Shown: piece after piece, positions 10,511 through 61,300 of the stretch
Layout: every line of letters begins with the position of its first letter
Position numbering within the stretch: position 1 is the stretch's first letter
From: Tistrella mobilis
Lineage (GTDB): Bacteria; Pseudomonadota; Alphaproteobacteria; Tistrellales; Tistrellaceae
Reading direction: 5' to 3'
Assembly: GCF_041468085.1 (NCBI RefSeq)
Contig: NZ_CP121015.1
Location: forward strand, 1 to 64,000
Length of the DNA stretch: 64,000 nt
Program-made: the position numbers and the translations under genes
Notes under the pieces: generated by a model
Told to the model about the DNA's origin: nothing
The model's input: the letters and a program-made list of their open reading frames with translations, nothing else
Database searches by the model: none

Positions 10511-10528
10511 ACGGCGGTTCCGCGCCGC

Positions 10529-11008: not shown

Positions 11009-11043
11009 GCGTCATCCTGCGAGCTGATTGACACTCTGCGCAT

Positions 11044-11067
11044 TAATTGACATCATGATGTCAATTA
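11044..11067. promoter_or_regulatory. Perfect 24-bp palindrome, candidate MarR operator
   Basis: Each half-site reads TAATTGACATCA and the other half is its exact complement, with no central gap. It sits between the divergent MarR and membrane-protein genes. It contains TTGACA on both strands, so bound repressor would cover the -35 elements of both promoters. Confidence 0.75.
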
Positions 11068-11149
11068 GTCATGTAGATGACGCTAGCGCGTCTGCCCATC
11101 CCGGGCAAGCCCCGGATGCCGGCGGCGCCGATGGGGAGACCCTGTCCCG

Positions 11150-11635: not shown

Positions 11636-11637
11636 CT

Positions 11638-13862: not shown

Positions 13863-13914
13863 CGGGTTCCGCTCTCCCTCTGATTTTCCGGCTTGACCCA
13901 GAATACGAGTCTGG

Positions 13915-13944
13915 CTCATGTTTTTCAATATGAGAGTTACTCAT
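13915..13944. promoter_or_regulatory. Candidate TetR operator with CTCAT/ATGAG half-sites
   Basis: CTCAT at 13915, ATGAG at 13930 and CTCAT at 13940 form two overlapping inverted pairs; ATGAG-AGTTA-CTCAT is the tighter one. The site is AT-rich and lies between the two divergent genes, just before the ribosome site of the reductase gene. Confidence 0.5.
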
Positions 13945-13963
13945 GTTTTGGGGAGAGGCGACC

Positions 13964-26570: not shown

Positions 26571-27476
26571 ATGACAGACCGGTTGAGCGGCATCGGCGTG
26601 TTCGTGGAGGCGGCGGAGGCGGGCAGTTTCTCGGCGGCGGCCGAGCGGCTGGCCCTGTCGCGTTCGGCGGTGGCCAAGACGGTGGGCCGGCTGGAGGCCC
26701 GGCTGGGCGTGCGGCTGTTCCACCGCACCACCCGCGCCCAGGCGCTGACTGAAGACGGCCAGGCCTTCCTGGAGCATTGCCTGCGGGGGCTGGCCGAAAT
26801 CCGCGCCGGAGAGGCGATGCTCGATCGCGGCCGGCGTGCGGTTTCGGGGCGTCTCAGGGTGTCGCTGCCGGTGCTGTTCGGCCGGCGCTGCGTCGCCCCG
26901 ATCCTGACCGGGCTTGCCCGCGAGCATCCGGGGCTGGAGCTGGACCTGCATTTCACCGACCGGCTGGTCGATCTGGTCGAGGACGGCATCGATCTTGCCA
27001 TCCGCAACGGCCCGCTGGAGGATGCGTCGGGGCTGATGGCGCGGCTGGTCGCCCGCCAGCGGATGACGATCGTGGCCTCGCCCGACTATCTGGCCCGGCG
27101 CGGCACGCCGGCCGATCTGGCGGCGCTGGCCGATCACGACTGCCTGGTCTATCTGCGCGGCGGCCGGGTGCGCGGCTGGCTGTTTCCGCAGCCCGACGGC
27201 AGCGATGCGGTGATCCGCCCGGCCGCGCGGCTGCGTTTCGACGATCTGGAGGCGCTGGCCGATGCGGCGGCGGCGGGGCTTGGCCTGACCTGGCTGCCCT
27301 GCTGGCTGGTCCGCGACCGGGTGCGCGCCGGCACGCTGGCCGAAGTGCTGACCGACCGGCCGGCGACCGTGTTCACCAGCCATGCGATCTGGCCGCGCAG
27401 CCCCCATACCGACCTGAAGCTGCGGCTGGCCGTCGACCGTCTGGCCGCGCAGCTGCCGGGTGCGGCGGAGCTGTAA
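26571..27476 (+). CDS. LysR family transcriptional regulator
   Basis: 301 residues from ATG 26571 (AAAGAGG six bases upstream), the standard LysR length; ATG 26547 would add eight residues. N-terminal helix-turn-helix GSFSAAAERLALSRSAVAKT and LEARLGVRLFHRTTR. The effector domain begins at RLRVSLPVLFGRRCVAPIL. It stands back to back with the MDR oxidoreductase gene, the usual layout for a LysR activator and its target. Confidence 0.9.
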   Translation: MTDRLSGIGVFVEAAEAGSFSAAAERLALSRSAVAKTVGRLEARLGVRLFHRTTRAQALTEDGQAFLEHCLRGLAEIRAGEAMLDRGRRAVSGRLRVSLPVLFGRRCVAPILTGLAREHPGLELDLHFTDRLVDLVEDGIDLAIRNGPLEDASGLMARLVARQRMTIVASPDYLARRGTPADLAALADHDCLVYLRGGRVRGWLFPQPDGSDAVIRPAARLRFDDLEALADAAAAGLGLTWLPCWLVRDRVRAGTLAEVLTDRPATVFTSHAIWPRSPHTDLKLRLAVDRLAAQLPGAAEL

Positions 27477-27589
27477 CGGCGCGGCGAAATGCCGTGCGCC
27501 CGGTCTGCACAGGCGACAGCCGTACCGCTTGCGGGTACCATCCGCCGCCTGGCCCGCCGGGCGGCGGGGGAAGCTGAAGAGAGGGGCGG

Positions 27590-28222
27590 ATGCGCGACGA
27601 CGTCCGGGAGTTCAAGCGGGCGCTGATCCTGAAGGCGGCGGCGGAGCTGTTCTTCACCCAGGGCTATGCCCGCACCAGGCTGGACGATCTGGCGGTGCGG
27701 CTGCAGATGTCCAAGGCCTCGATCTACGATCATTTCTCGGGCAAGGCCGAGATCCTGTCGACGATCTGCGAAGCCTCGGTCGAGGCGTCGTTGAACGTGG
27801 TCCGGCGGGTGGCGGGTGCCGGGCTGGACCCGGTGGCGCAGATCGGCGCGGTGGCCCATGGCTTCACCGGGGTGGTGATCGACAACCATCAGCAGATCGC
27901 CATCCATGCCCGCGAATTCGCCCATCTGCCCGAGGCGGGGCAGGAGCGGATCATCGCCACCCAGCGCGCCTTCGATGCGCTGCTGGTCGAGATGCTGGAG
28001 GCCGGCCGCGCGGCCGGCCGGCTGACGGTGGCCGACCCCCGGGTGACCGCGCTCGCACTCGCCGGCATGATCATCTGGGTCCATAACTGGTACCGCCCCG
28101 ACGGCCGGCTGACCCGCGCACGCATTGCCGAAGGCATGGTCCGCAACGCGCTCGCCATGGTCGGCGCCGAGGCCGAGGCCGGGGCGGTGCTGGAACGGCT
28201 ACGCTTTTCCGGCCTGGTCTGA
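27590..28222 (+). CDS. TetR family regulator (KstR2/FadR-like)
   Basis: 210 residues. Helix-turn-helix RLDDLAVRLQMSKASIYDHF, followed by a TetR_C domain with YRPDGRLTRARIAEGMV near the C-terminus, a feature of regulators of acyl-CoA metabolism. An enoyl-CoA hydratase gene is 1.3 kb away on the other strand, a possible target. The last 24 bp overlap the convergent 100-residue gene. Confidence 0.85.
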   Translation: MRDDVREFKRALILKAAAELFFTQGYARTRLDDLAVRLQMSKASIYDHFSGKAEILSTICEASVEASLNVVRRVAGAGLDPVAQIGAVAHGFTGVVIDNHQQIAIHAREFAHLPEAGQERIIATQRAFDALLVEMLEAGRAAGRLTVADPRVTALALAGMIIWVHNWYRPDGRLTRARIAEGMVRNALAMVGAEAEAGAVLERLRFSGLV

Positions 28223-28501
28223 GGGTGGGGAGCCGTCCGGCGCAGCCGGCGGCGGGGCCGGCCAGGCCGCGGCTGCGGCCCTGAGCGTCACCAGCCGGGC
28301 GCGCAGCCCGTCGAGACGGGCGACGGCATCGGCGATCGAGGTGGTGGCCAGGCAGTCCAGATCATCGTCGATCGCGGCCATGGTCTCGGCCGCGGCGGCC
28401 GCGGTGGCCGTATCGCCACGGACAAGTGCCGCCTGCCGCAGCTCGAATGCCTCCAGGCGTTGCCGTTTCAGATCGCGTTCGATGGTGGCTGCATCGGTCA
28501 T
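28199..28501 (-). CDS. Small helical hypothetical protein
   Basis: About 100 residues from ATG 28501. Almost entirely helical, Ala-rich (AAAAAETMAAIDDDLDCLAT), with a Pro-rich C-terminus (PAPPPAAPDGSPPSD). No known family. It follows a lipoprotein gene by 36 bp in the same direction and may belong to the same operon. Confidence 0.5.
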   Translation of the reverse strand: MTDAATIERDLKRQRLEAFELRQAALVRGDTATAAAAAETMAAIDDDLDCLATTSIADAVARLDGLRARLVTLRAAAAAWPAPPPAAPDGSPPSDQAGKA

Positions 28502-28537
28502 GGCCCTGTGTCCCTCTCCCCGGAGTTCGGGCACCCG

Positions 28538-29413
28538 TCAACGTGTGCGGGTGGCCCTGACGGTTTCGGCCAGCACCCGCAATCCGTTGGCCTGATCGGC
28601 CAGTTCGGTGAAGCGGATGGCCGGGCCGTCGGCGGTGGCGGCGGCCACCGCCGCATCCATGGCGCGCGCCGTGCCGTCGAGCAGCAGCACCCAGCCGGCG
28701 AGCAGGCGCCGGTCCTGCTCCAGCGCCGTCTCCTGGTCGGGGGTGAGGCCCGAGGCCGTCTGGGCGCTGGTGTCGGGAGCGACGCGGGATCGTTCGAACA
28801 CCCGGAACATGGCCGGTGTCGCCCCGCGCAGACCGGTCAGGATATCCTTCATGACCGGGTGCGCCGCCGCCAGTTCGGCCCGGAAGCGGTTGCGGGCATC
28901 GGCCGCGACAAGGCTGCCGAAGATCGGTTCGGCGATGCCGATCGCCCCGGCCAGGGCATCCTTGGTGGCCGGTGCGGCGACAGTACCGGCGGGGCCGAAG
29001 CCTGCGGTCAGGATGCCGCCCGCGGTGACCAGATCGCGCAGGATCCCGGCCGCGCGGCCGGCGAGCGCGTCGGCGGCTTCGCCATTGGCCAGCCCCAGAA
29101 GCGCGGCGTTGTAGCCGCCAAGGGCGGAGAGCGTGGCGCGCAACCCGGCAGTATAGGGGCCGTCGACGCCGTCCACATAATAGGCGGCCTTGTCGGGATC
29201 GAAGGGCTCGATGATGCCGGGCGTCCGGGTCTGGCGCAGGATCAGCCGCCGCTCGGCGATGGCGAAGGCATCGAGCACGGCATCGCCCTGGCGCTGCTGG
29301 GCGGCATAGGCTTCGGAATAGGCGGCGAATTCTGCAACCCCGCGCGTGCCGCCGCAGGCGGCCAGCAGGAGCAGCAACGGTAACAGGACGAGGATGGAAC
29401 GCTGCCGGGCCAT
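28538..29413 (-). CDS. Lipoprotein of unknown function
   Basis: 291 residues. The signal peptide SILVLLPLLLLLAAC ends in a lipobox (LAAC, Cys at residue 20). The mature protein is helical and Ala-rich, with ATKDALAGAIGIAEPIFG in the middle. No family recognised. The residue after the Cys is Gly, which favours outer-membrane sorting. Confidence 0.7.
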   Translation of the reverse strand: MARQRSILVLLPLLLLLAACGGTRGVAEFAAYSEAYAAQQRQGDAVLDAFAIAERRLILRQTRTPGIIEPFDPDKAAYYVDGVDGPYTAGLRATLSALGGYNAALLGLANGEAADALAGRAAGILRDLVTAGGILTAGFGPAGTVAAPATKDALAGAIGIAEPIFGSLVAADARNRFRAELAAAHPVMKDILTGLRGATPAMFRVFERSRVAPDTSAQTASGLTPDQETALEQDRRLLAGWVLLLDGTARAMDAAVAAATADGPAIRFTELADQANGLRVLAETVRATRTR

Positions 29414-29484
29414 TCTGGCCTCCTTTCTGGCCGGATGACCATCAGTATACGCGAAAATGCCAGCATATGTTCACGCATTCGCAT

Positions 29485-29520
29485 AAAAACCCCCGCCCGC
29501 GGCGATGCCGGGGGCGGGGT
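29485..29520 (-). terminator. Intrinsic terminator after the enoyl-CoA hydratase gene
   Basis: Read on the minus strand, a GC stem (CCCCGCCCCCGGC pairing with GCGGGCGGGGG) is followed by TTTTTATG. It lies 28 bp past the stop of the crotonase gene. Confidence 0.8.
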
Positions 29521-29547
29521 GGGATGCGATGGCGGGTTGGGGGCGGT

Positions 29548-30360
29548 TCAGCGGCCGGTGAAGGCCGGGGCGCGCTTTTCCACGAAATGGCTGACACCCT
29601 CGCGGAAATCCTCGCTTTCGAAGCTCTCCACCATCAGCCGGTTGGCCTCGTCCCAGGCGGTGGACAGGTTCTGGAACATCGCCCGGTAGACCTGGCCCTT
29701 CATCACGCCGATCGAGCGCGGCGAAGAGGTGGTGACCAGTTCGCGGGCATAGGTCTTCACGGCATCCAGGAAGCCTTCGGCCGGCAGGCTGCGCACCAGG
29801 CCCAGGCGCTCGGCCTCGTCCGTGCCGACCAGCCGGCCCGAGAACAGCAGTTCCAGCGCGTTCATGTTGCCGATCAGCCGCGGCAGCATCCAGGAACTGC
29901 CGTGTTCGGCGATCAGCCCGCGGCGGGCGAAGGCGGTGGTGAGCTTCGCACCCTCGGCCATGAAGCGCAGATCGGTGAACAGCACCATGCACAGGCCGAT
30001 ACCGGCGACCGGGCCGTTGATCGCCGCGATCACCGGGGTCTTCAGCTTCAGCATATAGCTGAATTTCTGGTCGAAATTATCGTCCGACACCGCCTCGGCC
30101 GCGTGCGGCTCCCGCGTGCCCTGGGTTTCCGCTGCGCCTGAAAGCAGGCCCATATCGGCGCCGGCGCAGAAGCCGCGCCCGGCGCCGGTGACGATGATCG
30201 CGCGCACCGCCTCGTCGGCCTCGGCGCGGAGCATGGCGTCGTGCATCTCGTCTTCCATCGCCTGGGTCCAGGCGTTGAGGCGATCCGGGCGGTTGAGGGT
30301 GATGACCGCAAGCGGTCCGTCGACCTCGTAGAGGATGTCGGTATAAGCCTGGGCATTCAT
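29548..30360 (-). CDS. Enoyl-CoA hydratase/isomerase (crotonase family)
   Basis: 270 residues from ATG 30360. Crotonase core with LAVITLNRPDRLNAWT, the oxyanion-hole segments GAGRGFCAGADMGLL and INGPVAGIGLCMVLFTDLR, and the RRGLIAEHGSSWMLPRLIG region in which Glu is the likely acid/base. Probably acts in fatty-acid or aromatic acyl-CoA breakdown in the cytoplasm. A terminator follows it. Substrate cannot be told from sequence. Confidence 0.88.
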   Translation of the reverse strand: MNAQAYTDILYEVDGPLAVITLNRPDRLNAWTQAMEDEMHDAMLRAEADEAVRAIIVTGAGRGFCAGADMGLLSGAAETQGTREPHAAEAVSDDNFDQKFSYMLKLKTPVIAAINGPVAGIGLCMVLFTDLRFMAEGAKLTTAFARRGLIAEHGSSWMLPRLIGNMNALELLFSGRLVGTDEAERLGLVRSLPAEGFLDAVKTYARELVTTSSPRSIGVMKGQVYRAMFQNLSTAWDEANRLMVESFESEDFREGVSHFVEKRAPAFTGR

Positions 30361-30565
30361 CTGGGGGAGAACCTTCTTGAGACGGGTTCCGTGGCCGTTC
30401 ATGCCCGGATCGAACAATGTTCACCAGATCATCTGATCGGGCGAGCCAAATAGATCAGGGCATGGGAACAGCGTTTGGAACGGGATTTGATCTGGCGGCG
30501 CCGAGTTTTTTCTTGGCAGGATCGTCTGCAACGGTTCTCGAAGTCTACGGGAGTGGCCGGGGCGG

Positions 30566-32947
30566 TCAAGCCTCTGCCTGCGGGTGCAGGCGGATGGTCG
30601 TTACCGTCGCGGCATCGACCGCAGCCCGGCTGTAGGGCATGGGCAGGGTGGCGGCCCGCGCCCAGCCTTCGGCATGGTCGGCCAGATGGGGGCTGGCCGG
30701 ATCGCCCGACTGGCCGGGGCCGTTGATGAAGCGCGCCGCATCCCAATTGCCGACATCGATCACCATGCGGAACGACGCGCCGATCACCAGCCGCCCGTCT
30801 GCGGGGCGATAGGTGGTGTTCATCACCGTCATGCCCGACCCGCCCACCGGCAGCGGGCCGATCTCCGGGAAGCCCTGCATGCCCGCCTCGACCAGCGGGT
30901 GGACGAAGAGCGCATGGTGGAACCGCCCCCAATCCCAGCCGGCCGGATCGGCGCCGAAGCGGCGGCGGCAGTCGGCGACGGCCTGGCCCAGCGTCGGCAG
31001 CAGACAGGCGCGGGCGGCCGGGTCGGTGTCCAGCCGGTCGAGCAGGGTTTCGGCATCGCCCGGCTCCAGCATCCGGCGCAGCACCGGATCATCGGTCATG
31101 CGGTCGAGCAGCGCCGGGCGCAGATGATGCGTCCACCAGATCTCGAACAGCGCCGCCGCCGGTGTGTTCAGCCGCAGATGATGGTCCCAGCCGGCGAGCA
31201 GGGCCAGGCCGTCCTGAACCTCGCCGGCGGCTGCGGTGTCGGGCGCCGGCAGATGGCCGCAGACCCGTGCGGCCGGGATTGAGAACACATCGCCCTGCAA
31301 CGCTTCGGCGGCGGCCGGATCGTGCGGCGGGCCATCGGCCAGCACCGCCTTGATCCGGTCGGCGCGGAAGGGTTCCAGCCATTCGAAGCCGAAACCCCGG
31401 TTGCGCAACGGCCCGTCCGGCAGGTTCATCTCGTTGGCGGTGGCGATGAAGCCGCGGGGCGGGTCGATCTCGCGCGGCAGGCCGGCCGGGTCGTGGAAGC
31501 CGGTCCAGTCGTATCGCCCGTCGCCCGGCACCGGCAGCAGCCCGTCCGAGGCCGGGCGCCGCGGCAGTTTTGCGCCCACGATCCAGGCGATCCGCCCGTC
31601 GATATCGGCATAGACATGGTTGGTGGAGGGCACCGACCAGTGGCCGAGGGCGGCGGCATAGGCTTCCGGTGACCGCGCCCGCATGCAGCCGAGCCCGGCC
31701 AGATAGGGGGCTGCCCCGGGTTCCGACCAGACGGTGCGCACCGCAAAGGCGCGGCGGCGGTCCGTATCGCGGAAGATGACCGGGCCATGGACGGTGAAGT
31801 GCAGCGCCAGTTTCTGCGCCGGGCAGCCCTTCACCGGGATGCTCTCTTCCACCACCGTCATCGGCACATAACCGTCGCCGTGGCGGTAGAGCAGCGGGTC
31901 CTGCGCGGCCGTCTCGCAGACGAACAGATCCTCCTGATCGGCGGGGAAGATGGTCAGCGCGAAGGCGGCATGGCCGTTATGGCCCAGCGAGATGCCGGGA
32001 ATGGCGGGCTCGCCCGCACCGATCACGTCGAGGCCGGGGGCGGTGAGGTGGACCGCATAGCGCAACGACGGCAGGGCGTAATGGCGATGCGGGTCGCTGG
32101 CGAGCAGGGCGCGGCCGGTGGCCGTGCGCCCCGGCGCCACCACCCAGTTGTTGGAGCCTTCGGCCGCCGCCATCGCCGCCATCACCCGCCCCTCGGCATC
32201 GACGCGGGACCAGCGTGGCGCGTCGTTGAGGCCGGCGGCGAGCCGGGCGGGCTCGAAACTGACCGGGGCGGTGGCGAGCAGGAAATCATCCAGCACCCGG
32301 GCGCCGATATCCTCGGGGTCGAGGCCGTCGGGCACCCGGATCTCGTGCGCGGGCGCGATCGAGCGGCGGACGAGGTCCAGCGCCAGCGCCGCGGCGTCGT
32401 CTGCGTCCCGGCCCTGCTCACGGGCCAGGGCACGGGCACGCCCCAGAAGGCGGGCGCGCATCACTTCCGATGTCAGATTGCGCACCAGGGCATGGCTGCG
32501 GATGCGGACCACATCCTCGGGCGCCCAGCGCGCCGGCCGGGTGCCCATGGCGTGGAATTCGGGCGCGAGCAGCCCGGGATCGGCCTCGGTCAGCGCGATC
32601 CAGGCATTGATGCCGCGGGTGAAGGCGGCAACGATCCCCTCCAGCCCCGGCACCCCATAGGCCGCCCATTCCGCCGCCATGTCGCCACGATAGAGAAACA
32701 GCCGCGCGGCGCGGTCCTGCGCCAGATAGCCCGGCCCGAAATCGGCCGAGAGCAGCCCCAGCCCGCGCTTGCGCCAGAGATCGATCTGCCACAGCCGGTC
32801 GCGGGCGGCGTTGAACCCCTGCAGCAGAAACAGATCCGCCTCCGACCCCGCCCGCAGATGGGCCAGCCCGTGGCCATCGATCCGGATCTCGGCAGGGCCG
32901 TCGAGACCGGCCAGGATGATATCGTCGGGCATGCGATCGGCGGCCAT
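30566..32947 (-). CDS. Penicillin/AHL acylase family Ntn hydrolase
   Basis: 793 residues from ATG 32947. The alpha part starts with ILAGLDGPAEIRIDGHGLAH. The self-cleavage site lies before Ser265 in AEGSNNWVVAPGRTATG, the nucleophile of the beta chain, followed by LLASDPHRHYALPSLRY. Later elements typical of the family are LGHNGHAAFALTIFPADQED and VGGSGMTVMNTTYRP. No obvious signal peptide with this start, unlike many periplasmic members; an upstream GTG/ATG near 33043 adds a Pro-rich stretch but not a clear signal. Members cleave amide bonds in penicillins, acyl-homoserine lactones or other N-acyl compounds. Confidence 0.88.
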   Translation of the reverse strand: MAADRMPDDIILAGLDGPAEIRIDGHGLAHLRAGSEADLFLLQGFNAARDRLWQIDLWRKRGLGLLSADFGPGYLAQDRAARLFLYRGDMAAEWAAYGVPGLEGIVAAFTRGINAWIALTEADPGLLAPEFHAMGTRPARWAPEDVVRIRSHALVRNLTSEVMRARLLGRARALAREQGRDADDAAALALDLVRRSIAPAHEIRVPDGLDPEDIGARVLDDFLLATAPVSFEPARLAAGLNDAPRWSRVDAEGRVMAAMAAAEGSNNWVVAPGRTATGRALLASDPHRHYALPSLRYAVHLTAPGLDVIGAGEPAIPGISLGHNGHAAFALTIFPADQEDLFVCETAAQDPLLYRHGDGYVPMTVVEESIPVKGCPAQKLALHFTVHGPVIFRDTDRRRAFAVRTVWSEPGAAPYLAGLGCMRARSPEAYAAALGHWSVPSTNHVYADIDGRIAWIVGAKLPRRPASDGLLPVPGDGRYDWTGFHDPAGLPREIDPPRGFIATANEMNLPDGPLRNRGFGFEWLEPFRADRIKAVLADGPPHDPAAAEALQGDVFSIPAARVCGHLPAPDTAAAGEVQDGLALLAGWDHHLRLNTPAAALFEIWWTHHLRPALLDRMTDDPVLRRMLEPGDAETLLDRLDTDPAARACLLPTLGQAVADCRRRFGADPAGWDWGRFHHALFVHPLVEAGMQGFPEIGPLPVGGSGMTVMNTTYRPADGRLVIGASFRMVIDVGNWDAARFINGPGQSGDPASPHLADHAEGWARAATLPMPYSRAAVDAATVTTIRLHPQAEA

Positions 32948-33062
32948 GGGGCGAAGGATCCTCGCAGTCGGGTGGGGGAAGAAGGCGGGTGACGGGAAGG
33001 CGAGTGACGGGACAGGGGCGCATGAAGCGGGGGGTGGCGTCAACTGGTCGCCATCAATTAAG

Positions 33063-33080
33063 AATGAGACGCATTGTCAT
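33063..33080. promoter_or_regulatory. Fur-box-like site before the haem uptake operon
   Basis: AATGAGACGCATTGTCAT matches the AATGAGAATCATTATCAT form of the Fur consensus at 15 of 18 positions. It lies 83 bp before the sigma factor gene in an AT-richer intergenic patch, and would make the operon iron-repressed. Confidence 0.6.
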
Positions 33081-33162
33081 AGTCCATCCCGCCCGCTAGA
33101 CTGGCGTCAGCCAGCCGCCAGTTTCATTCACCGCAGATCACCGATCAGGGGGGCGGGGAGGG

Positions 33163-33666
33163 GTGGCGACGCGCGCGCTCTCGATATCCAGGCTGTATGG
33201 ACATGAACGCGATCGTCTGCGGGCGATCGCGCGGCGGATCCTGGGCGATCCGGTCACGGCCGAGGATCTGGTGCAGCAGGCCTTCGTCAACCTGCTGGGT
33301 CGCAGCGCCCATGCCGATCCGCCGCCGGTGAGCCAGGCCTATATCACCGCGGCGGTGCGCCATCTGACCCTCAATCATCTGCGCAATACGAAACGCCGGG
33401 GCGAGGTGGCGCTGGACGATGTGGCGCTGGCCGCGATCCCGGCGCCGGTCGCGAGCCCCGAGGATACCGTCATCCACCGGGCGGAGCTGCGGCGGCTGCT
33501 GAAGGCGATCGAGGCCCTGCCCCGGCGGCGGCGGCAGGTCTTCGTGCTGAGCCGGCTGGCGGGGTTGAGCTATATGGAGATTGCAGAGCGCATGGGCATC
33601 TCGCGCAACACGGTGATCTCGCAGATCGCCTCGGCCATGGTCGATCTCGACCGGGCGCTCGGCTGA
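33163..33666 (+). CDS. FecI/HasI-like ECF sigma factor
   Basis: 167 residues, GTG start at 33163 behind GGGGAGGGG. Region 2: RLRAIARRILGDPVTAEDLVQQAF. Region 4: QVFVLSRLAGLSYMEIAERM plus the recognition helix ISRNTVISQIASAM. It works with the anti-sigma factor encoded next (TGATG overlap) and the TonB receptor after that, so that binding of haem at the outer membrane turns on transcription of the receptor gene. Confidence 0.9.
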   Translation: MATRALSISRLYGHERDRLRAIARRILGDPVTAEDLVQQAFVNLLGRSAHADPPPVSQAYITAAVRHLTLNHLRNTKRRGEVALDDVALAAIPAPVASPEDTVIHRAELRRLLKAIEALPRRRRQVFVLSRLAGLSYMEIAERMGISRNTVISQIASAMVDLDRALG

Positions 33667-34592
33667 TGGCGGCCGCCATGGAGGGCGATGATCGGGCCGA
33701 GGCGATGCGCTGGTTCCTGGTGCTGAACGAGGAACCGGTGAGTGCCGCCGATCGCGCCGCCTTCGCCCGCTGGCTGGCCGGCGGGGAGGGCCGGGTGGCC
33801 GCCTATGCCCGGGCGGAAGAATTATGGGACCGTTACGGCGCGGTGAAACCGGCCTGGCAGCGGATGCAGGCCCGCCGTCGGGTCAACCGTCGGGCGGTGC
33901 TGACCGGCGGCGCGGCCCTGATCGCCGGCGCCGCCACATCGCAGCTGCTGGCCCCCGGCCGGCTGCTGGCCGACGAGACCACCGGCACCGGCGAGCGGCG
34001 CAGCCTGACGCTGGCCGATGGCAGCCGGGTGGAACTCGGCGGCCGGTCGGCACTCTCCACCCGTTTCGACGCCAGCCATCGCCTGGTCATGCTGGAGGAT
34101 GGCGAGGCCTGGTTTCATCCCGCGGCCGATCCGCGGCCGTTCATGCTGCGCACCGGCCAGGGCCTGATCATCGCCGGAAGCGACCCCTTCGACGTGAAAT
34201 GCCGGAACGGCCTGACCATCGCCGCCGCCCTCGACGGCCCCCTGCGGCTGCGCCCGGCCCGCGGCGCACCGGCCGATCTGGCGGCGGGGCACCGACTGGC
34301 TTTCGACATCCGTGCCGCCGGGGACCCCCATCCCTGCCGGGCGGCGGAGGTGCTGGCCTGGCGCCGCGACCGGATCGTGTTCGAAGACGAAAGCCTGGCC
34401 GCGGTGGTGGAGGATCTGGAGCGTTACCGCCCGGGCCGGATCGTGCTTGCCGGCGCAGGGGTGGCGGATCTGAAGGTGACCGCCGTCTTCGACCTGACCC
34501 GGCCGGAGCGTGCGCTCGACATTCTGGCCGAGACGCTGGCGCTCAGGATCCGCCGCCTGGCCGGGCTCGCCCTGGTCACCCGGGCGGGCTGA
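33666..34592 (+). CDS. FecR/HasS-like anti-sigma factor
   Basis: 308 residues, starting within the sigma stop codon. N-terminal DUF4880 sigma-binding part (AMRWFLVLNEEPVSAADRAAF to RAEELWDRYGAV), one membrane segment near residues 75-97 (AVLTGGAALIAGAATSQLL), then the periplasmic FecR domain (RRSLTLADGSRVELGGRSAL, PFMLRTGQGLIIAGSDPFDV) and a C-terminal STN-like part that meets the receptor signalling domain. Inner membrane protein. Confidence 0.9.
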   Translation: MAAAMEGDDRAEAMRWFLVLNEEPVSAADRAAFARWLAGGEGRVAAYARAEELWDRYGAVKPAWQRMQARRRVNRRAVLTGGAALIAGAATSQLLAPGRLLADETTGTGERRSLTLADGSRVELGGRSALSTRFDASHRLVMLEDGEAWFHPAADPRPFMLRTGQGLIIAGSDPFDVKCRNGLTIAAALDGPLRLRPARGAPADLAAGHRLAFDIRAAGDPHPCRAAEVLAWRRDRIVFEDESLAAVVEDLERYRPGRIVLAGAGVADLKVTAVFDLTRPERALDILAETLALRIRRLAGLALVTRAG

Positions 34593-34723
34593 AAAAAAGC
34601 GCGCTCCCGCAAAAAAAAGCACAGGCCGGATCATAACCCCCCGCGTCCCGGGTGTCTGGATCATGAGGGCCGCCCGATGGCGGCCGATCATGGGACATGA
34701 CCGACAGGGAAGGACGGCCGGGA

Positions 34724-37354
34724 ATGCCGGATCATATGACGAGACGGTACCATATGGCGGGGCGTGGGGCGGTGACGCTGGTGTTCCTGATGACCGGCGC
34801 CGTGCTGCCGCTGGCGCCGGCACCGGTCGCCGCGCAGGTGTCGGCGGTGCGCGACTATGCGATTGCCGCCCAGCCGCTGGCTGCGGCGCTGGTCCGCTTC
34901 TCGGAAACCAGCGGCCGGCAGGTGGTGGCCGATGGCGAACTGCTGCGCGGCCGCACCACCGGCGGCGTCACCGGCAGCTATGCCGATGATGCCGCCCTGG
35001 TCCGGCTGCTGGCCGGCACGGGTCTCACCTGGCGGTTCAGCGGCGAGGCGGTGATCATCCAGGCGGCGCCCGAGAGCAGTGAGGCGCGGCAGCTGCAGCC
35101 ATTGGTGGTAACCAGCGCCGTTCCCGCATCCGACAAGCCCTATGAGACCGCGGCGCCGGTGGCGCATATCGGGGGCGACACCATCCAGCGCTTCCGGGGC
35201 AGCAGCCCTGCCGACATCTTCCGCGGCGTGCCGGGCGTGATGTCGGGCGAGGCGCGCAACGGCGCCGGGTCGATCGACGTCAACATCCGCGGCATGCAGG
35301 GCATGGGCCGGGTGGCGACCACCATCGACGGGGCCGAGAATGTGGTCACCGTCTATCAGGGGTATCAGGGCGTCTCGAACCGCACCTTCGTCGATCCGGA
35401 TCTGCTGGCAGAGGTGGACATCACCAAGGGCTCCGACGTCTCGTCGTTCGGAACCGCCGGCACGGTCGCCATGCGCACGCTGTCGGCCGCGGATATCGTG
35501 GATGAGGGGGAGGAATTCGGCGTCCGGCTGAAGGGCGGGTTCGGCACGAACACCTCCTCGCCCAAGGCGGGTGATACATCGGGCTATGCCTGGCCGTCGA
35601 ATTCGCCGGCGGCCCCCACCGCCAGCCCGACGGGGCTGGACCGTCCGGGCTGGGCGGAGCCGACCAGCGGCTCGGGCAGCGCGGTTGCCGCCTATCGCGA
35701 TGCCGATATCGACCTGCTTGCGGCCTATGCCTATCGCAAACAGGGCAATTATCATGCGGGCAGCCATGGGGCGGCCGCCACCGTCACCAATCTGGGGCCC
35801 GGCGAATACTGCACCAGCTGGGGCAGTTGCAGCCAGGTCGACGACCGTTACGAGAATGGCGGCATCGCCAATTACCGCGCCGGCGAAGAGGTGCTGAACA
35901 CCGAGCTTGAGACCACCTCGTGGCTGGGCAAGGCGGGGCTGCGCTTCAGCGACGGCCATGCCGTGCAGCTGGGCTATACCAAATTCCGCAGCGAGGCCGG
36001 CGACCGCATCGCCTCGCGGCTGACCGGTGAGACTTCGCAGGCGGTCCAGCTGGGCCAGACCGCCGGCACCTGGCTGGATACCGGCACCGTCAATTATCGC
36101 TGGAAGCCCGAGGGCGAGCCGCTGGTCGATCTGAAGGCCAATCTCTACTGGTCGCATCTGGAACTGCGCAACCCCCTCCGCACCGGCTGGCGGCCACCCC
36201 AGCCGGGGGATTTCCGCGCCGGCTCCGACACCGATATGTGGGGGGCGGAGATCACCAATGTCAGCCGGGTGGCGACCGGCTTCGGCGACACCACCTTCAC
36301 CTATGGCGTGTCCTATCGCGGCGAGGATACCGGGCCGAGCGACGGCACCCGCGAGGCGGAAACCTGGCTGGACTATCGCGATGCAAAACGCGAGGAGGCG
36401 GCCGGGTTCGTCAAGGCCGCGTGGGAGGCAACCGACTGGCTGACGGTGAATGGCGGCCTGCGCTATATGCATTTCCGGACCCGGGATCGCAACGACCCCT
36501 ATCTCGAACGCGGCTATGACTATGACGCCCGCTTCAGCGATGGCGGCTTCAGCCCCTCGCTCGGCGTGACCGTGGAGCCCGTGGACGGCACTCAGTTCTA
36601 TGTGAATTATTCGAATGTGATGCGGGCGCCGAGCCTGATCGAATCGGCCTCGGCCTTCACCATGGGTGTCAATCCCGACGTCACGCCGGAACGGTCGCGG
36701 AACTGGGAGCTGGGCGTCAATCAGCACCTGCGCGGCGTGCTGGACCCGGCCGACGATGCCATGGTCAAGCTCAGCTACTTCAACTGGGACGTGACCGACT
36801 ACATCGCCCGCGAGTGGTATTATAATACCCAGCACAACTACTGGAGCATGCATATCTACAATATGGACCGGGCGAAATTCGAAGGCCTCGAACTCTCCGG
36901 CCGCTATCGCCAGGCCGGGTTCACCGCGGAGTTTTCGGCAAATTATTATCTGAACGTCGAATTCTGCCGCACGGCCGACAGCTGCGTCGACACGTCGCTT
37001 TATGGCGACTATTCCACCAACCATGTGCCGCCGGAGTATTCGGCCGATCTCACCCTCTCGCAGCTGCTGTTCGACGACATGCTGACGCTGGGCGGACGCG
37101 TGTCGCATATCGGCCCGCGGGCCATCGGCCATGGCGATCCCACGGCCCAGGGCGCGTCGCAGTTCATTTCTCAGGTGAACTGGAAGCCCTATACCCTGGT
37201 CGACCTGTTCGCGGATGTGGAGATCAACGAGAACCTGACCACCAGCCTGTCGGTGATGAACCTCACCGACCGCTATTACGTCGACCCGCTGGGGCTGGTG
37301 AACCAGCCGGGGCCGGGCCGGACGCTTTACATGTCGGCGACCGTGAAGTTCTGA
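34724..37354 (+). CDS. hasR: HasR-like TonB-dependent haem receptor with signalling domain
   Basis: 876 residues from ATG 34724 (AGGGAAGGA ten bases upstream; ATG 34697 and 34754 possible). Signal peptide VTLVFLMTGAVLPLAPAPVAAQ. N-terminal STN signalling domain (YAIAAQPLAAALVRFSETSG) marks a receptor that drives its own sigma factor. The plug has RGMQGMGRVATTIDGAENVV and YQGYQGVSNRTFVDPDLLAE, very close to HasR-type haem/haemophore receptors. The barrel contains NYSNVMRAPSLIESASAF (the FRAP-like region) and ends in a terminal Phe (LYMSATVKF), needed for barrel assembly. No haemophore HasA gene or HasDE secretion genes follow, so haem may be taken directly or the haemophore is elsewhere. Confidence 0.9.
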   Translation: MPDHMTRRYHMAGRGAVTLVFLMTGAVLPLAPAPVAAQVSAVRDYAIAAQPLAAALVRFSETSGRQVVADGELLRGRTTGGVTGSYADDAALVRLLAGTGLTWRFSGEAVIIQAAPESSEARQLQPLVVTSAVPASDKPYETAAPVAHIGGDTIQRFRGSSPADIFRGVPGVMSGEARNGAGSIDVNIRGMQGMGRVATTIDGAENVVTVYQGYQGVSNRTFVDPDLLAEVDITKGSDVSSFGTAGTVAMRTLSAADIVDEGEEFGVRLKGGFGTNTSSPKAGDTSGYAWPSNSPAAPTASPTGLDRPGWAEPTSGSGSAVAAYRDADIDLLAAYAYRKQGNYHAGSHGAAATVTNLGPGEYCTSWGSCSQVDDRYENGGIANYRAGEEVLNTELETTSWLGKAGLRFSDGHAVQLGYTKFRSEAGDRIASRLTGETSQAVQLGQTAGTWLDTGTVNYRWKPEGEPLVDLKANLYWSHLELRNPLRTGWRPPQPGDFRAGSDTDMWGAEITNVSRVATGFGDTTFTYGVSYRGEDTGPSDGTREAETWLDYRDAKREEAAGFVKAAWEATDWLTVNGGLRYMHFRTRDRNDPYLERGYDYDARFSDGGFSPSLGVTVEPVDGTQFYVNYSNVMRAPSLIESASAFTMGVNPDVTPERSRNWELGVNQHLRGVLDPADDAMVKLSYFNWDVTDYIAREWYYNTQHNYWSMHIYNMDRAKFEGLELSGRYRQAGFTAEFSANYYLNVEFCRTADSCVDTSLYGDYSTNHVPPEYSADLTLSQLLFDDMLTLGGRVSHIGPRAIGHGDPTAQGASQFISQVNWKPYTLVDLFADVEINENLTTSLSVMNLTDRYYVDPLGLVNQPGPGRTLYMSATVKF

Positions 37355-37463
37355 CAGGCAAGGCGGAAGGCAGGAGGCGGCTCTTGGGGCCGGCGCCGAT
37401 CCGGTGCATGATGGGCCGATCCGCCTTCAACGCACCCGACCGACCGCCGGCCCCTGCGCACCG

Positions 37464-37952
37464 ATGCCGAAACCCGCCACCGACGCCGAAACCTTCCGCT
37501 GCCTGTTGCGCCGTCCGGTGGACGATCCGGCGGTGCAGGCGCTGATCCGCGTCGCCCCGGAAGGGCTGGAGCGGGTGGACTGGACCGGCGTCGTCCGGTT
37601 GCAGCGCCACGGGGTGGCGGTGATGTTCAAGACCGCCCCCTGGGTCACGGGCGACGACGGCGAGACGCTGCATGTCGAGGCGATCCATTTTTATGGCCCC
37701 GGCCATGAAGGATCGCCCGGCTTTGCCGGCAGCCTTCCGGCCGGGCTCGCCTTCGGGGCCGAGGAAGCGGCGATCCGCGCCGGCCTGGGGGAGATCCGCA
37801 ACCAGGGCGGCGGCATCTTCAGCCGCACACTGCGTCGCACCCTGCCGCGCTGGATCTCGTTCGATTTCGGACCGGATATCCTGCACCTCCAGTTCAGCGG
37901 CGCGGGCGGGCTGGAACTGGTGACGATCTATGTGCCGCTGCCGGGCGTGTGA
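37464..37952 (+). CDS. Hypothetical protein, 162 residues
   Basis: ATG 37464. Soluble, no signal peptide. Notable pieces are MPKPATDAETFRCLLRRPVD at the start and RTLPRWISFDFGPDILHLQF near the end. No family recognised. It lies 110 bp behind the receptor gene and directly in front of the CRISPR-leader relic, whose hairpin could act as its terminator. Confidence 0.55.
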   Translation: MPKPATDAETFRCLLRRPVDDPAVQALIRVAPEGLERVDWTGVVRLQRHGVAVMFKTAPWVTGDDGETLHVEAIHFYGPGHEGSPGFAGSLPAGLAFGAEEAAIRAGLGEIRNQGGGIFSRTLRRTLPRWISFDFGPDILHLQFSGAGGLELVTIYVPLPGV

Positions 37953-37956
37953 CCGG

Positions 37957-38077
37957 CCCGCGAACCCCAAGCCCCGGTAAAACCCCCGGGAGGTTCGCGC
38001 GGATCGCCTTTTTGCGGATCGCCTTTTTTCCGGCATCGGAGTCAGGGTATTCAAGAGGGGGTGGGTCGCACCCTTGC
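37957..38077 (+). CRISPR. Relic of a CRISPR leader plus 13 nt of a repeat
   Basis: Positions 37957-38064 align with the minus-strand leader of the intact array (56261 down to 56083). Both begin with the hairpin GCCCGCGAACCCCAAG ... GGGAGGTTCGCG, and both end with CCGGC-N2-CGGA-N-TCAGG-N-TATT, AAGAGGGGGTG directly before the repeat. The copy here lacks the segment between two GAGGTTCGCG direct repeats present in the intact leader and has a duplicated GCGGATCGCCTTTTT. The first 13 nt of the repeat (GTCGCACCCTTGC, 38065-38077) remain; then similarity fades. So a second leader-repeat junction existed here. Its T-runs may now serve as a terminator for the preceding gene. Confidence 0.7.
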
Positions 38078-38179
38078 CGGCGCCACCATGAGGCGGATGT
38101 GGTTCAGGCTGTCCCGGTCCTCGACATCGGCGGCAGACAGTTGCATGCGCGGGTATCTGTGGACAAGCCGATGGCGTGA

Positions 38180-38476
38180 TCGTTCTGGCACCATCCTTCC
38201 TGGTGTTTTGCCGTCGCCTTCATCGCGCTGACCGCACGACTTCGCCCTGGTGCGGACCGGCAGCCGGCCGAGTGGGCGGCGCGGTCCGCGGCGCCGGGCC
38301 GGATCGTCATCGACAATGCGAAGAAGATCCTGATCGCCCTGCCGCTCTGCAATGATCTCCACGACTGGTTCGGGGGCGAGATCGCCGAGGACGAAGTCGT
38401 CCTCGGCATCCATGCGTTTCAGTCTGCGCAGCCGCATTGGTCGCGGCGGCGGCTGCAACGGCCGGGCGATCTCTGA
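38180..38476 (+). pseudogene. Possible gene remnant without a start codon
   Basis: An open frame of 98 codons, bounded by TGA 38177 and TGA 38474, has a plausible protein-like second half (PGRIVIDNAKKILIALPL, CNDLHDWFGGEIAEDEVVLG) but no usable start. It sits in a 650-bp stretch (38078-38723) that otherwise shows nothing gene-like. It may be the tail of a gene broken when the CRISPR relic formed. No family recognised. Confidence 0.25.
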
Positions 38477-38603
38477 CGACTTCGCGGCGCCCTCCGATCC
38501 CGGCTTCCGGTCATGGCCGGACCGGGCTATGCTGGGGCATTCCATCAGCGACAAGGCCAGCTGACGACATGTGGATGATGTGGGGCACCCGTCGAATTAG
38601 CTG

Positions 38604-38627
38604 CCCGGCCTGACCGTTCAGGCCGGG
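38604..38627. terminator. Perfect hairpin CCCGGCCTGA-N4-TCAGGCCGGG
   Basis: A 10-bp stem with a 4-nt loop in the gap before the small ATPase gene. No long T-run follows on either strand, so it could be a weak terminator or a regulatory hairpin. Confidence 0.4.
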
Positions 38628-38723
38628 ACAATCGCGTGCGCCATTCTGTCAGCCATCCGCCGTCGGCCGTTTTGCGGGGCATCTCTCGCGGGGGCCGGGG
38701 CCGTGTCCGGAGTTTTCCGACCC

Positions 38724-39254
38724 ATGTCGTCCATACCAGTCCTGCATCTGCTCTCGGGCAAGATCGCGGCCGGCAAATCCACGCTTGCCGCCCGCCTTGC
38801 CGCTGCCCCCGCCACCGTGCTGGTCGCCGAAGACGCCTGGCTTGCCCGGCTCTACGGCCCTGAAATGGCCAGCGTCGCCGATTATGTGCGCTATTCCGCC
38901 CGGCTGCGTGCGGCGATGGGGCCGCATGTCACCGACCTGCTCCGCGCCGGCCTGTCGGTGGTGCTGGATTTTCCGGCCAACACGCTTGCCAATCGGGCCT
39001 GGATGCGCGGGATCTTCGAGGCCGCCGGTGCCGACCATCGCCTGCATCTGATCGACCTGCCCGATGAGATCTGCCGGGCCCGGCTGCGGCAGCGCAATGC
39101 CGCAGGCGGCCACGATTTCGCCGCCACCGATGCCCAGTTCGATCAGATCACCGCCCATTTTGTCCCCCCGGCAGCTGAGGAGGGGTTCCGGGTGGTGGTG
39201 CATGCGGGGCGGCCCGGCTTTGAAACCGGTCGTCGCGACGACGTCTGGCTCTGA
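38724..39254 (+). CDS. Small P-loop ATPase/kinase-like protein
   Basis: 176 residues from ATG 38724. Walker A SGKIAAGKSTLAARL at residues 11-25; SVVLDFPANTLANRAWMRGI provides the Walker B-like acidic strand; RARLRQRNA is a lid-like Arg-rich stretch. It resembles the AAA_33/zeta-toxin-like kinase family of small ATP-binding proteins. Monocistronic, convergent with the cyd operon. Substrate unknown. Confidence 0.75.
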   Translation: MSSIPVLHLLSGKIAAGKSTLAARLAAAPATVLVAEDAWLARLYGPEMASVADYVRYSARLRAAMGPHVTDLLRAGLSVVLDFPANTLANRAWMRGIFEAAGADHRLHLIDLPDEICRARLRQRNAAGGHDFAATDAQFDQITAHFVPPAAEEGFRVVVHAGRPGFETGRRDDVWL

Positions 39255-55139: not shown

Positions 55140-56082
55140 GTTTCGGTCTGCGCGCCCGTAAGGGTGCGACCGGAAGGGACCGGCGTCTGGTCCCAGGCAC
55201 TTGGTTTCAATCCACGCACCCGCAAGGGTGCGACCGGTGTGGCATGATGCCCATTGTCAGACTCAAGAGCTTCAATCCACGCACCCGCAAGGGTGCGACG
55301 CGCGGCAGAATCCGCATCCCGTCGTCGCACGAGTGTTTCAATCCACGCACCCGCAAGGGTGCGACTCGGCCAGCGCCACCTCAGCCTCTGCCGATGCCCG
55401 TTTCAATCCACGCACCCGCAAGGGTGCGACCGCCCTCACCGGCCCCGCTTCCGCGCCGGCGCGGTTTCAATCCACGCACCCGCAAGGGTGCGACTCCAGG
55501 CCGCACCAGGCCGCCAGACGGGCCTGTGTTTCAATCCACGCACCCGCAAGGGTGCGACGTGCCGGCACCGGAAGCTGACCCGGTCGACGTCAAGTTTCAA
55601 TCCACGCACCCGCAAGGGTGCGACTGGTGAGATCAACCATTGCGCTACCTTCCGAACGGTTTCAATCCACGCACCCGCAAGGGTGCGACTCTTTAACGGC
55701 TCCGACCCTGGGGCAGCTGTACCACGGTTTCAATCCACGCACCCGCAAGGGTGCGACCCGGCCAGTTATGTGGCGCAGACGCGGGTGTTGGCGGTTTCAA
55801 TCCACGCACCCGCAAGGGTGCGACCGCTCGGGCGTCGCCAGTGCGTGGAGCGACAGCGTTTCAATCCACGCACCCGCAAGGGTGCGACGCTCCCGGGTGC
55901 CGCAAGGCACGCGCTACCGTGGGTTTCAATCCACGCACCCGCAAGGGTGCGACCGCGCAGCACTGCGGCTGACGGTGCCCGTGCTGCGTTTCAATCCACG
56001 CACCCGCAAGGGTGCGACGGGCTTGAGCAATGCTCTAGACCGGTCGCTTGCGTTTCAATCCACGCACCCGCAAGGGTGCGAC
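55140..56082 (-). CRISPR. Type I-C-like CRISPR array, 15 repeats and 14 spacers
   Basis: Repeats of 31 nt start at 55140 (degenerate), 55204, 55269 (one mismatch), 55335, 55400, 55464, 55528, 55594, 55659, 55727, 55794, 55858, 55923, 55988 and 56052. On the plus strand each begins GTTTCAATCC and contains the stem-loop CGCACCC-GCAA-GGGTGCG. Reversed, it ends in GTGGATTGAAAC, the type I-C hallmark, so the crRNA is read on the minus strand. Spacers are 33-37 nt, all different by eye. The degenerate repeat at 55140 is the leader-distal end, and the AT-rich leader is at 56083-56261. No cas genes lie on either side: gcd on the left, a SufR-like gene on the right. None of the spacers has an obvious match elsewhere in the window. 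Confidence 0.97.
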
Positions 56083-56261
56083 TCACCCCCTCTTAATAGC
56101 CTGAATCCGCAGCCGGAAAAAGGCGATCTGCGCGAACCTCCGCTGGAGGCCATGCCAAAGTATGAACAAGAATAAATCGTGAAATTTAAGTCATTGAAAA
56201 AAGCCAGAAATTTTTTCCGCGAACCTCCCGGGGTTTTTACGGGAGCTTGGGGTTCGCGGGC
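56083..56261 (-). promoter_or_regulatory. CRISPR leader
   Basis: AT-rich (AAATTTAAGTCATTGAAAAA and GAAATTTTTTCC runs), directly next to the first, perfect repeat. Its distal end is a hairpin (CCGCGAACC ... GGTTCGCGG at 56218-56259). A shortened copy is at 37957-38064. It holds the array promoter and, by analogy with other arrays, the signals for spacer insertion. Confidence 0.8.
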
Positions 56262-56522
56262 GAGGCGGGGCGGGTTCTGGGGCGGTATTGGCGGTGAGAA
56301 GATCCCGTAGAGACGCCTCGTGGTTTCTGTCCGGGTCTATGGTCGCGCAGTGCTGCACAAACCCTCTGCCGTCCGTCCGGCGTGAGGGCTGACGGTTGCC
56401 TTTTGTGGGGATGACGGATCGGCCTGCCCCACAGCCCTTGCCCCGCGCCGTCCTCTCCCTTAATTTCCAAAGACCGGCTTGGAATAACGCTTTGGCATGA
56501 TCCCGAAAGGGCGAGGACGCGG
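56262..56522. other. Intergenic region between CRISPR leader and sufR-like gene
   Basis: 260 bp with no gene, repeat or palindrome that I can support. It must hold the promoter of the sufR-like gene; AAATTTCCAAAG at 56461-56472 is an AT island close to it. Confidence 0.4.
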
Positions 56523-58820: not shown

Positions 58821-58967
58821 GTGGAAATGTTATACTATTGATATTATTATTGAAAATACCGATAAGAATTGGAGCGCATAACCTGTTATGTAAATGAGCG
58901 CGACCCGACGGAAACCGTGCTTTTCGGAGGTCTCTTGACAAGGGTTTGGAAGGAGGGGAGTTTGAAG
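58821..58967 (+). promoter_or_regulatory. Leader-like sequence B before repeat array 2
   Basis: Gap-free homologue of leader A. More AT-rich in the first half (TATTGATATTATTATTGAAA). Palindrome CATAAC-CT-GTTATG at 58877-58890, TTGACA at 58935-58940, AGGAGGGGAG at 58951-58960, first repeat unit at 58968. ATG 58970 of the unit lies ten bases after this ribosome-site-like block. Confidence 0.65.
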
Positions 58968-61300
58968 GCATGACCATTTGCTCCGGTCATGGAAACCCCG
59001 CAACCCGGTCCCCCGGGTTGTCGGTGGATTCAGCCCTCTGGCCATCCGCGCGCCGCGCCGTTGATGTCCGGCGCCGTCGCTGCCAGTCCCGGCACACCCT
59101 CCCCACCGTCATCCCGGCGAAGGCCGGGATCCAGGTTCGCCCCCCCCACAAAGAACGCTGAACGCCCTGGTCCGGCGGTGATGGCCGACATGGTGGTCCG
59201 CACGCCCGGTCGCCTGTCCATTCCCGTGGACGCCTACCTGGATCCCGGCCTTCGCCGGGATGACGGTAGAGGGGGTGTCCAGTGGATGGCGAGGTTTGGA
59301 TCGGACATAGAGGTTTGAGGTCATGACCATTTGCTCCGGTCATGGAAACCCTGCAACCCGGTCCCCCCGGGTTGTCGGCCGATTAAGCCCTCTGGCCATC
59401 CGCGCGCCGCGCCGTTGATGTCCGGCGCCGTCGCTGCCAGTCCCGGCACACCCTCCCCACCGTCATCCCGGCGAAGGCCGGGATCCAGGTTCGTCCCCCC
59501 ACAAAGACCGCTGAACGCCCTGGTCCGGCGGTGATGGCCGACATGGTGGTCCGCACGCCCGGTCGCCTGTCCATTCCCGTGGAAACCTACCTGGATCCCG
59601 GCCTTCGCCGGGATGACGGTAGAGGGGGTGTGCAGTGGGTGGCGAGGTTTGGATCGGACATAGAGGTTTGAGGTCATGACCATTTGCTCTGGTCATGGAA
59701 ACCCCGCAACCCGGTCTCCCGGGTTGTCGGTGGATTCAGCCCTCTGGCCATCCGCGCGCCGCGCCGTTGATGTCCGGCGCCGTCGCTGCCAGTCCCGGCA
59801 CACCCTCCCCACCGTCATCCCGGCGAAGGCCGGGATCCAGGTTCGCCCCCCCCACAAAGAACGCTGAACGCCCTGGTCCGGCGGTGATGGCCGACATGGT
59901 GGTCCGCACGCCCGGTCGCCTGTCCATTCCCGTGGACGCCTACCTGGATCCCGGCCTTCGCCGGGATGACGGTAGAGGGGGTGTGCAGTGGGTGGCGAGG
60001 TTTGGATCGGACATAGAGGTTTGAGGTCATGACCATTTGCTCTGGTCATGGAAACCCCGCAACCCGGTCTCCCGGGTTGTCGGCCGATTCAGCCCTCTCG
60101 CCATCCGCGCGCCGCGCCGTTGATGTCCGGCGCTGTCGCTGCCAGTCCCGGCACACCCTCCCCACCGTCATCCCGGCGAAGGCCGGGATCCAGGTTCGCC
60201 CCCCACAAAGAACGCTGAACGCCCTGGTCCGGCGGTGATGGCCGACATGGTGGTCCGCACGCCCGGTCGCCTGTCCATTCCCGTGGACGCCTACCTGGAT
60301 CCCGGCCTTCGCCGGGATGACGGTAGAGGGGGTGTGCAGTGGATGGCGAGGTTTGGATCGGACATAGAGGTTTGAGGTCATGACCATTTGCTCCGGTCAT
60401 GGAAACCCCGCAACCCGGTCCCCCGGGTTGTCGGCCGATTCAGCCCTCTGGCCATCCGCGCGCCGCGCCGTTGATGTCCGGCGCTGTCGCTGCCAGTCCC
60501 GGCACACCCTCCCCACCGTCATCCCGGCGAAGGCCGGGATCCAGGTTCGTCCCCCCACAAAGAACGCCACACACCCGGGTCCGGCGGTGATGGCCGACAT
60601 GGTGGTCCGCACGCCCGGTCGCCTGTCCATTCCCGTGGAAACCTACCTGGATCCCGGCCTTCGCCGGGATGACGGTAGAGGGGGTGTGCAGTGGGTGGCG
60701 AGGTTTGGATCGGACATAGAGGTTTGAGGTCATGACCATTTGCTCTGGTCATGGAAACCCCGCAACCCGGTCTCCCGGGTTGTCGGTGGATTCAGCCCTC
60801 TGGCCATCCGCGCGCCGCGCCGTTGATGTCCGGCGCCGTCGCTGCCAGTCCCGGCACACCCTCCCCACCGTCATCCCGGCGAAGGCCGGGATCCAGGTTC
60901 GCCCCCCCCACAAAGAACGCTGAACGCCCTGGTCCGGCGGTGATGGCCGACATGGTGGTCCGCACGCCCGGTCGCCTGTCCATTCCCGTGGAAGCCTACC
61001 TGGATCCCGGCCGTCGCCGGGATGACGGTAGAGGGGGTGTGCAGTGGATGGCGAGGTTTGGATCGGACATAGAGGTTTGAGGTCATGACCATTTGCTCCG
61101 GTCATGGAAACCCTGCAACCCGGTCCCCCCGGGTTGTCGGCCGATTCAGCCCTCTGGCCATCCGCGCGCCGCGCCGTTGATGTCCGGCGCTGGCGCTGCC
61201 AGTCCCGGCACACCCTCCCCACCGTCATCCCGGCGAAGGCCGGGATGACGGTAGAGGGGGTGTGCAGTGGGTGGCGAGGTTTGGATCGGACATAGAGGCC
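58968..61300 (+). repeat. Repeat array 2: six full 353-bp tandem units and one shortened
   Basis: Units start at 58968, 59321, 59674, 60027, 60378, 60730 and 61083 (lengths 353, 353, 353, 351, 352, 353, then about 210). Each begins with palindrome GGTCATGACC and a second GGTCATG 16 bp on, then the hairpin AACCCGG-N-CCGGGTT, then a REP-like element (CCGTCATCCCGGC, GAAG loop) and, about 100 bp later, the same element inverted. The two elements can pair with each other over about 30 bp. Units are nearly identical; differences are mostly C/T changes and 1-bp indels. In the last unit the sequence between the two inverted elements is deleted, leaving one perfect 13-bp-stem hairpin at 61222-61251. 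Open frames in the units are artefacts or at most very short peptides. Confidence 0.95.

Follow-up and report, generated by a model that had tools for sequence, protein, structure and literature searches.

Within the stretch of Tistrella mobilis DNA analyzed here (64,000 nucleotides, hereafter the window), positions 37953-38077 are most probably (a probability of roughly 0.85) a relic of a type I-C CRISPR array, one member of a leader-array family that is dispersed through Tistrella genomes and for which a single I-C cas operon probably acts in trans. In these 125 bases, the leader known from the array at 55140-56082 recurs in shortened form and runs into the initial 13 nt of the 31-nt repeat. 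That array lies on the minus strand and is intact, with 15 repeats (13 perfect, one with one mismatch and one degenerate terminal repeat), and its full leader, at 56083-56265 on the same strand, served as the reference in the alignments and in a search of the whole genome. When 37940-38090 was aligned with 56055-56275 in reverse complement, two matching blocks with a deletion between them appeared, and the genome search with the leader as query recovered the stub as three pieces, at 37956-37999 (93%, E 7.8e-12), 37989-38013 (96%, E 3.0e-4) and 38014-38077 (88%, E 9.9e-14). Compared with 2000 dinucleotide shuffles each, the distal leader block scored 73 where the best shuffle reached 36, the proximal block 84 against 30 and the 51 nt adjoining the repeat, with the repeat itself excluded, 61 against 27. 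The first-pass annotation had proposed that a hairpin, a proximal block and the start of the repeat are common to this site and the leader near 56 kb, and the two aligned blocks, both scoring above all shuffles, bear this out; the similarity is not confined to the hairpin.

All parts of the stub are on the plus strand. The upstream reading frame (37404-37952) ends 3 nt before the leader, which begins with a distal block at 37956-37999 that is 93% identical to the reference leader and contains the hairpin CGCGAACC...GGTTCGCG; using RNA parameters, this hairpin folds in both the stub and the full leader (z of -3.6 and -3.7, respectively). In the full leader, two copies of GGAGGTTCGCG occupy positions 38-48 and 125-135, and these coincide at 37989-37999 of the stub, as seen in the overlap of the BLAST pieces and in the alignments, marking the loss of 87 nt. 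A perfect 15-bp tandem duplication, GCGGATCGCCTTTTT, follows at 37999-38028 (2.0 copies, 100%, Tandem Repeats Finder), and together the deletion and the duplication explain most of the difference between stub and leader; one extra C is also present in the stub, TATT(C)AAGAG. The proximal block that adjoins the repeat spans 38014-38064, and sequence comparison identifies 38065-38077, GTCGCACCCTTGC, as the first 13 of the 31 nt of the repeat; its other 18 nt and every spacer are missing. Thus leader homology extends up to the repeat and some repeat sequence is present at the leader end, and the locus has no whole repeat with spacers as a working CRISPR array has, which makes it a relic rather than an array. 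The leader that the stub most closely resembles is that of the array at 575 kb of the same contig, not that of the array at 56 kb. The explanation first offered for the shortening, recombination between direct repeats within the leader, holds in that a deletion fell between the two GGAGGTTCGCG copies; the name of the mechanism does not, as deletion between 11-nt repeats is better termed slipped-strand or short-homology deletion than homologous recombination.

The stub belongs to a large family. The genome that contains the window (G000; 6,300,058 bases on four contigs, the window being C2:1-64000) has nine arrays with this leader on three contigs in addition to the stub. They are found at 56, 76, 566 and 575 kb of C2 (15, 20, 5 and 6 repeats, respectively), at 406 and 921 kb of C4 (7 and 5 repeats) and at 206, 209 and 473 kb of C1 (9, 12 and 13 repeats), repeats being counted at each leader locus with up to 6 substitutions allowed. 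Hence, the view that the site holds a decayed leader and repeat stub of a lost array was correct as to its nature but not as to number, since two arrays in all had been proposed and the contig alone has four of the family plus the stub. The 31-nt repeat is identical in seven of the nine arrays, with 32-nt variants at C1:206k and C1:473k, and the repeats of the intact array match the Rfam family CRISPR-DR9 below its cut-off only (best 23.8 against 45 bits). A lone perfect repeat is present at C2:565209-565239, 1.4 kb past the end of the C2:566k array. The DNA beyond that array matches G001 (see below) twice, from A+487 to A+1376 and from A+1916 to A+2637, so it looks like a 1.4-kb tandem duplication may have carried the last repeat along.

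At an E value of 0.001 the leader was found in all three Tistrella genomes, G000 included, and in none of 56 other genomes of the class. The two relatives are T. mobilis KA081020-065 (G001, in which C2 is NC_017957.2) and a second genus mate (G002). An exact leader pattern occurred in a contig collection at two places, both on T. mobilis pTM1, and was absent from viral contigs; absence outside the genus rests on these exact patterns and the 56 genomes, and the collection may lack records of G000 itself. The leader loci total 27 (10, 9 and 8 in G000, G001 and G002, respectively), as found with one leader as query, so that more diverged leaders may be missed. By alignment, three features recur with small variations in 23 of the 27: the hairpin at the distal end, a second GGTTCGCG-like copy some 87 nt further along and the block that adjoins the repeat. 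The two GGTTCGCG-like copies are fused in the stub and in G001:C3:187k, and the proximal block is missing from G001:C2:386k and G001:C4:418k. None of the eight orthologous groups with at least two spacer-keeping members shared a spacer at the threshold used, and the seven similar spacer pairs listed all fall within one array or between non-orthologous arrays; this suggests turnover of array contents after the species diverged.

No cas genes were found beside the stub, as the first-pass annotation had noted. The search that it had suggested for a type I-C operon located one on the largest contig (G000:C4, 1037.7-1043.8 kb), where profiles identified cas3-cas5c-cas8c-cas7c. Of the genes expected of a type I-C system, cas8c, cas5c, cas7c and cas3 are all present, and cas4-cas1-cas2 are missing, which leaves the system incomplete in G000. 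G002 has I-C-type cas4, cas1 and cas2 after cas7 (by profile) and G001 has cas1 beside cas8c in an I-C operon with DNA 94% alike, and in G000 homology stops just past cas7 and resumes 5.8 kb further on. The 5.8 kb that stand in place of cas4-cas1-cas2 (9778-15576 of G000:C4:1034000-1052000) carry a 1251-aa frame with weak matches to a Cap4 nuclease domain and STAND NTPases, all below the Pfam cut-offs, as well as an HTH/S24-like regulator. A genome-wide Cas1 search of G000 returned only the I-E and II proteins and the one beside III-D, none of type I-C, and the 18 kb surrounding the I-C operon showed no array.

The assignment of the family to type I-C is upheld by a remnant of its leader directly 3' of the I-C cas2 of G001, which ties the one to the other; after cas2 in G002 there is a match that is weak and may or may not represent the leader (score 36, against 21-29 for the other, unrelated best scores). 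In the stretches C1 200-275 kb, C4 884-904 kb and C4 1034-1052 kb, G000 carries four CRISPR-Cas types in all: I-C, I-E (C1:228-237k), II (C4:892-896k) and III-D (C1:243-258k), the last with a 671-aa Cas1 fusion alongside, the reverse-transcriptase part of which was judged by eye. Each of the I-E, III-D and II loci has its own array of different repeats nearby. Since these systems have repeats of their own and the leader remnant follows cas2 in G001, the sequences suggest that the dispersed arrays are processed by the I-C system. Gene content further suggests that the I-C machinery of G000 may use its nine arrays with its own insertion genes gone, and it is possible that other Cas1 proteins of G000 act in trans for these arrays.

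The stub lies at a rearrangement breakpoint in a region with several deletions. To its left, flank X (27456-37952, plus strand; FecR/TonB receptor genes and others) is collinear with the minus strand of G001:C2 from 654101 to 641316 except for two gaps: 28223-29542 is extra in G000, and 3.6 kb of G001 are absent at 33048-33060. The G001 segment missing at 33047-33061 of the window (about C2:646195-649793) is annotated with a PqqD family protein, an HPr kinase and an asparagine synthase-related protein, a set typical of lasso-peptide clusters. X is homologous to both relatives as far as the stop codon that precedes the leader by 3 nt. In G001 and G002 no leader is present at the end of X, which continues into the gene for a PaaI thioesterase (the next gene 3' of X in G001), and in G000 that piece is found at C2:338532-334566. 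To the right, flank Y (38081-39203) consists of deletion-ridden acyl carrier protein/O-acyltransferase remains that match G001:C2:657616-654167 in four collinear pieces, 1123 bp in G000 standing for 3450 bp. Y lies before X in the relatives, directly so in G001 with 65 bp between them, and the X-stub-Y order of G000 is therefore permuted. In G000, the sequence that precedes Y in G001 occupies C2:426498-428046, where its inner part is reduced to small decayed pieces. The leader search detected nothing at G000:C2:338532 or 426498, the remaining two ends of the rearrangement, and the two relatives showed no intact orthologue of the stub array at this site, which is rearranged in G000. An array presumably stood at the stub site, or came with one of the flanks, and was cut off.

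Arrays of this leader family have died repeatedly, and in similar ways in the relative G001. Four of the 27 loci lack a whole repeat (the stub, G001:C2:386k, G001:C3:195k and G001:C4:418k) and one more, G001:C1:1441k, has a single whole repeat left. When orthology was assigned by flanks, three of the four repeat-poor loci of G001 had array-bearing partners. For example, G001:C2:386897 has no repeats and its upstream-flank orthologues have 20 each (G000 C2:76k and G002 C2:228k). At G001:C3:195959, in an end state resembling that of the stub, the leader runs through 8 nt of repeat directly into the family's trailer, and the orthologues keep 9 (G000 C1:206k) and 5 (G002 C17:98k) repeats. The orthologue of G001:C1:1441k, G002 C4:184k, has 31 repeats. 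In addition, G001:C3:187220-187329 shows the identical 87-nt leader deletion with 2 repeats remaining; its upstream flank is shared (93% over 4.1 kb) by G002 C36:2.6k, where a complete leader precedes at least 38 repeats, counted to near the end of the contig. The 87-nt lesion thus arose at least twice, unless one of the two copies, at the stub and at G001:C3:187k, was derived from the other; the flanks of the two are different. The arrays at G001 C2:386k and C3:195k were lost without this deletion, which argues against a fixed order of steps. Similarly, dead loci are most numerous in G001, which has I-C cas1, so the presence of this gene gives no protection; this argues against a simple rule that array death follows from loss of cas1.

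The following course could have produced the stub. An array with a full leader would have stood at the site or arrived with flank X or Y. It would then have lost 87 nt of leader by a short-homology deletion between the two GGAGGTTCGCG copies, an event that can be read from the sequence and has a second case in G001 and that was probably of slipped-strand nature, given the 11-nt repeats. This deletion may have removed sequence needed for spacer insertion or transcription, so that the shortened leader would have ended acquisition. The array would next have been lost by a deletion or rearrangement that reached from 13 nt into the first repeat to within Y; the junction itself is visible, and its place in the order of steps is presumptive. 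Finally, the remnant would have drifted, giving rise to the 15-bp duplication and the single-base insertion. The stub stores no spacers and should offer no target for integration, because its single repeat lacks 18 of 31 nt.

An alternative is that no array ever occupied the stub position and that a leader fragment was brought there by the rearrangement in which X and Y became joined. Even then the fragment would be a relic of an array formerly elsewhere, so this possibility overlaps with the relic reading and the odds of the two are not exclusive. That the stub sits between two segments that are not neighbors in that order in either relative, neither of which has a leader at the X end, speaks for a carried fragment; however, the piece begins where leaders usually do and continues without change of order into the first repeat, like the start of a whole unit, and arrays that died in place, one of them cut early in the first repeat, exist at loci with intact orthologues. 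We consider such a transfer unlikely, though with a real chance of being true; on the three genomes, the array may have stood at X, come with Y or arrived as a fragment.

It seems very improbable that the stub is retained because it has its own function, for example as a terminator hairpin of the gene upstream or as a small RNA. Although the distal hairpin folds well (z as given above) a few nt past the stop codon of the upstream frame, it is part of the family leaders regardless of what lies upstream, and the sole Rfam match within 37850-38250 at E up to 1 scores 16.1 bits, far short of the 52-bit cut-off. Nothing was found in favor of a generic intergenic repeat or chance similarity, which can practically be dismissed: the E values speak against it, and every match to the leader in G000 with E below 0.3 lies at one of the nine arrays or the stub. 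Chance similarity was also refuted by the shuffles. We retain the relic of an array as the preferred reading.

A broader and rather doubtful idea is that leader, array and trailer together make up a single self-copying cassette that spreads through Tistrella genomes, aided by the palindromic elements that frequently flank it, with the direct repeats in the leader as a weak spot that switches copies off before they are lost; arrays would then be born and die as a gene family does. A trailer of about 90 nt that runs into a palindromic element is common to six loci at four distinct sites (G000 C2:56k; C2:76k with G002 C2:228k; C2:566k with G002 C2:24k; and G002 C17:98k, which shares the trailer only from about nt 40 on). 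Palindromic elements occur within 500 bp of 11 of the 27 leader loci, and 14 of 36 fall within the 3.9% of 682 kb that flanks arrays; these counts include non-independent orthologues and duplicates, come from DNA sampled around arrays and cas genes and concern elements that favor intergenic DNA anyway, making their proximity to arrays a lead rather than a test. At 58960-61246 the window also has a 353-bp unit repeated 6.5 times in tandem; it includes a palindromic, MITE-like element with ends like CCGTCATCCCGGCGAAGGCCGGGATCC, to which the elements near the leader loci are related.

Comparison of four G000 arrays with G001 revealed no clean empty site (0 of 4). At C4:406k, homology breaks off 324 bp ahead of the leader and is restored 47 bp past the array, and 36 bp separate the two matches in G001. 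The corresponding distances at C4:921k are 359 and 528 bp with 1137 bp between (364 and 246 bp with 176 bp between when compared with G002) and at C2:575k 60 and 886 bp with 679 bp between; at C1:473k, homology ends 684 bp before the leader and there is none after the array. Consequently, no insertion boundary or target duplication can be read, and mobility of the unit is hypothetical.

Loss of CRISPR arrays is often inferred from absence. In Tistrella, readable scars together with intact orthologues for several of them could make the order and frequency of the steps of array death (leader lesion, shrinkage and loss) measurable in one genus. A repeat-based array finder should not report the stub, which suggests that searching with leaders reveals dead arrays that such finders miss. 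Nine papers mention both Tistrella and CRISPR; neither word appears in any of their titles or abstracts, and their texts may describe these arrays already.

Like known type I-C (Dvulg) CRISPR-Cas systems, the operon has cas3-cas5c-cas8c-cas7c in G000, followed by cas4-cas1-cas2 in G002 and by a family leader remnant after cas2 in G001; the G000 operon differs in having no array in its 18-kb stretch, dispersed arrays and no cas4-cas1-cas2. Orphan and degenerate arrays are a known kind of object, and the portions of two reports that describe them (PMC8616872, PMC12814883) present features that resemble ours: array sequence at a distance from cas genes, more than one array sharing a repeat for a single cas locus, and signs of degeneration. 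Relative to what those portions describe, the Tistrella stub differs in that it keeps only a leader and 13 nt of repeat, the array being gone, and in that related genomes show further stages of decay. The stub itself is thus of a known kind, and the part of interest is the readable series of decay stages to which it belongs.
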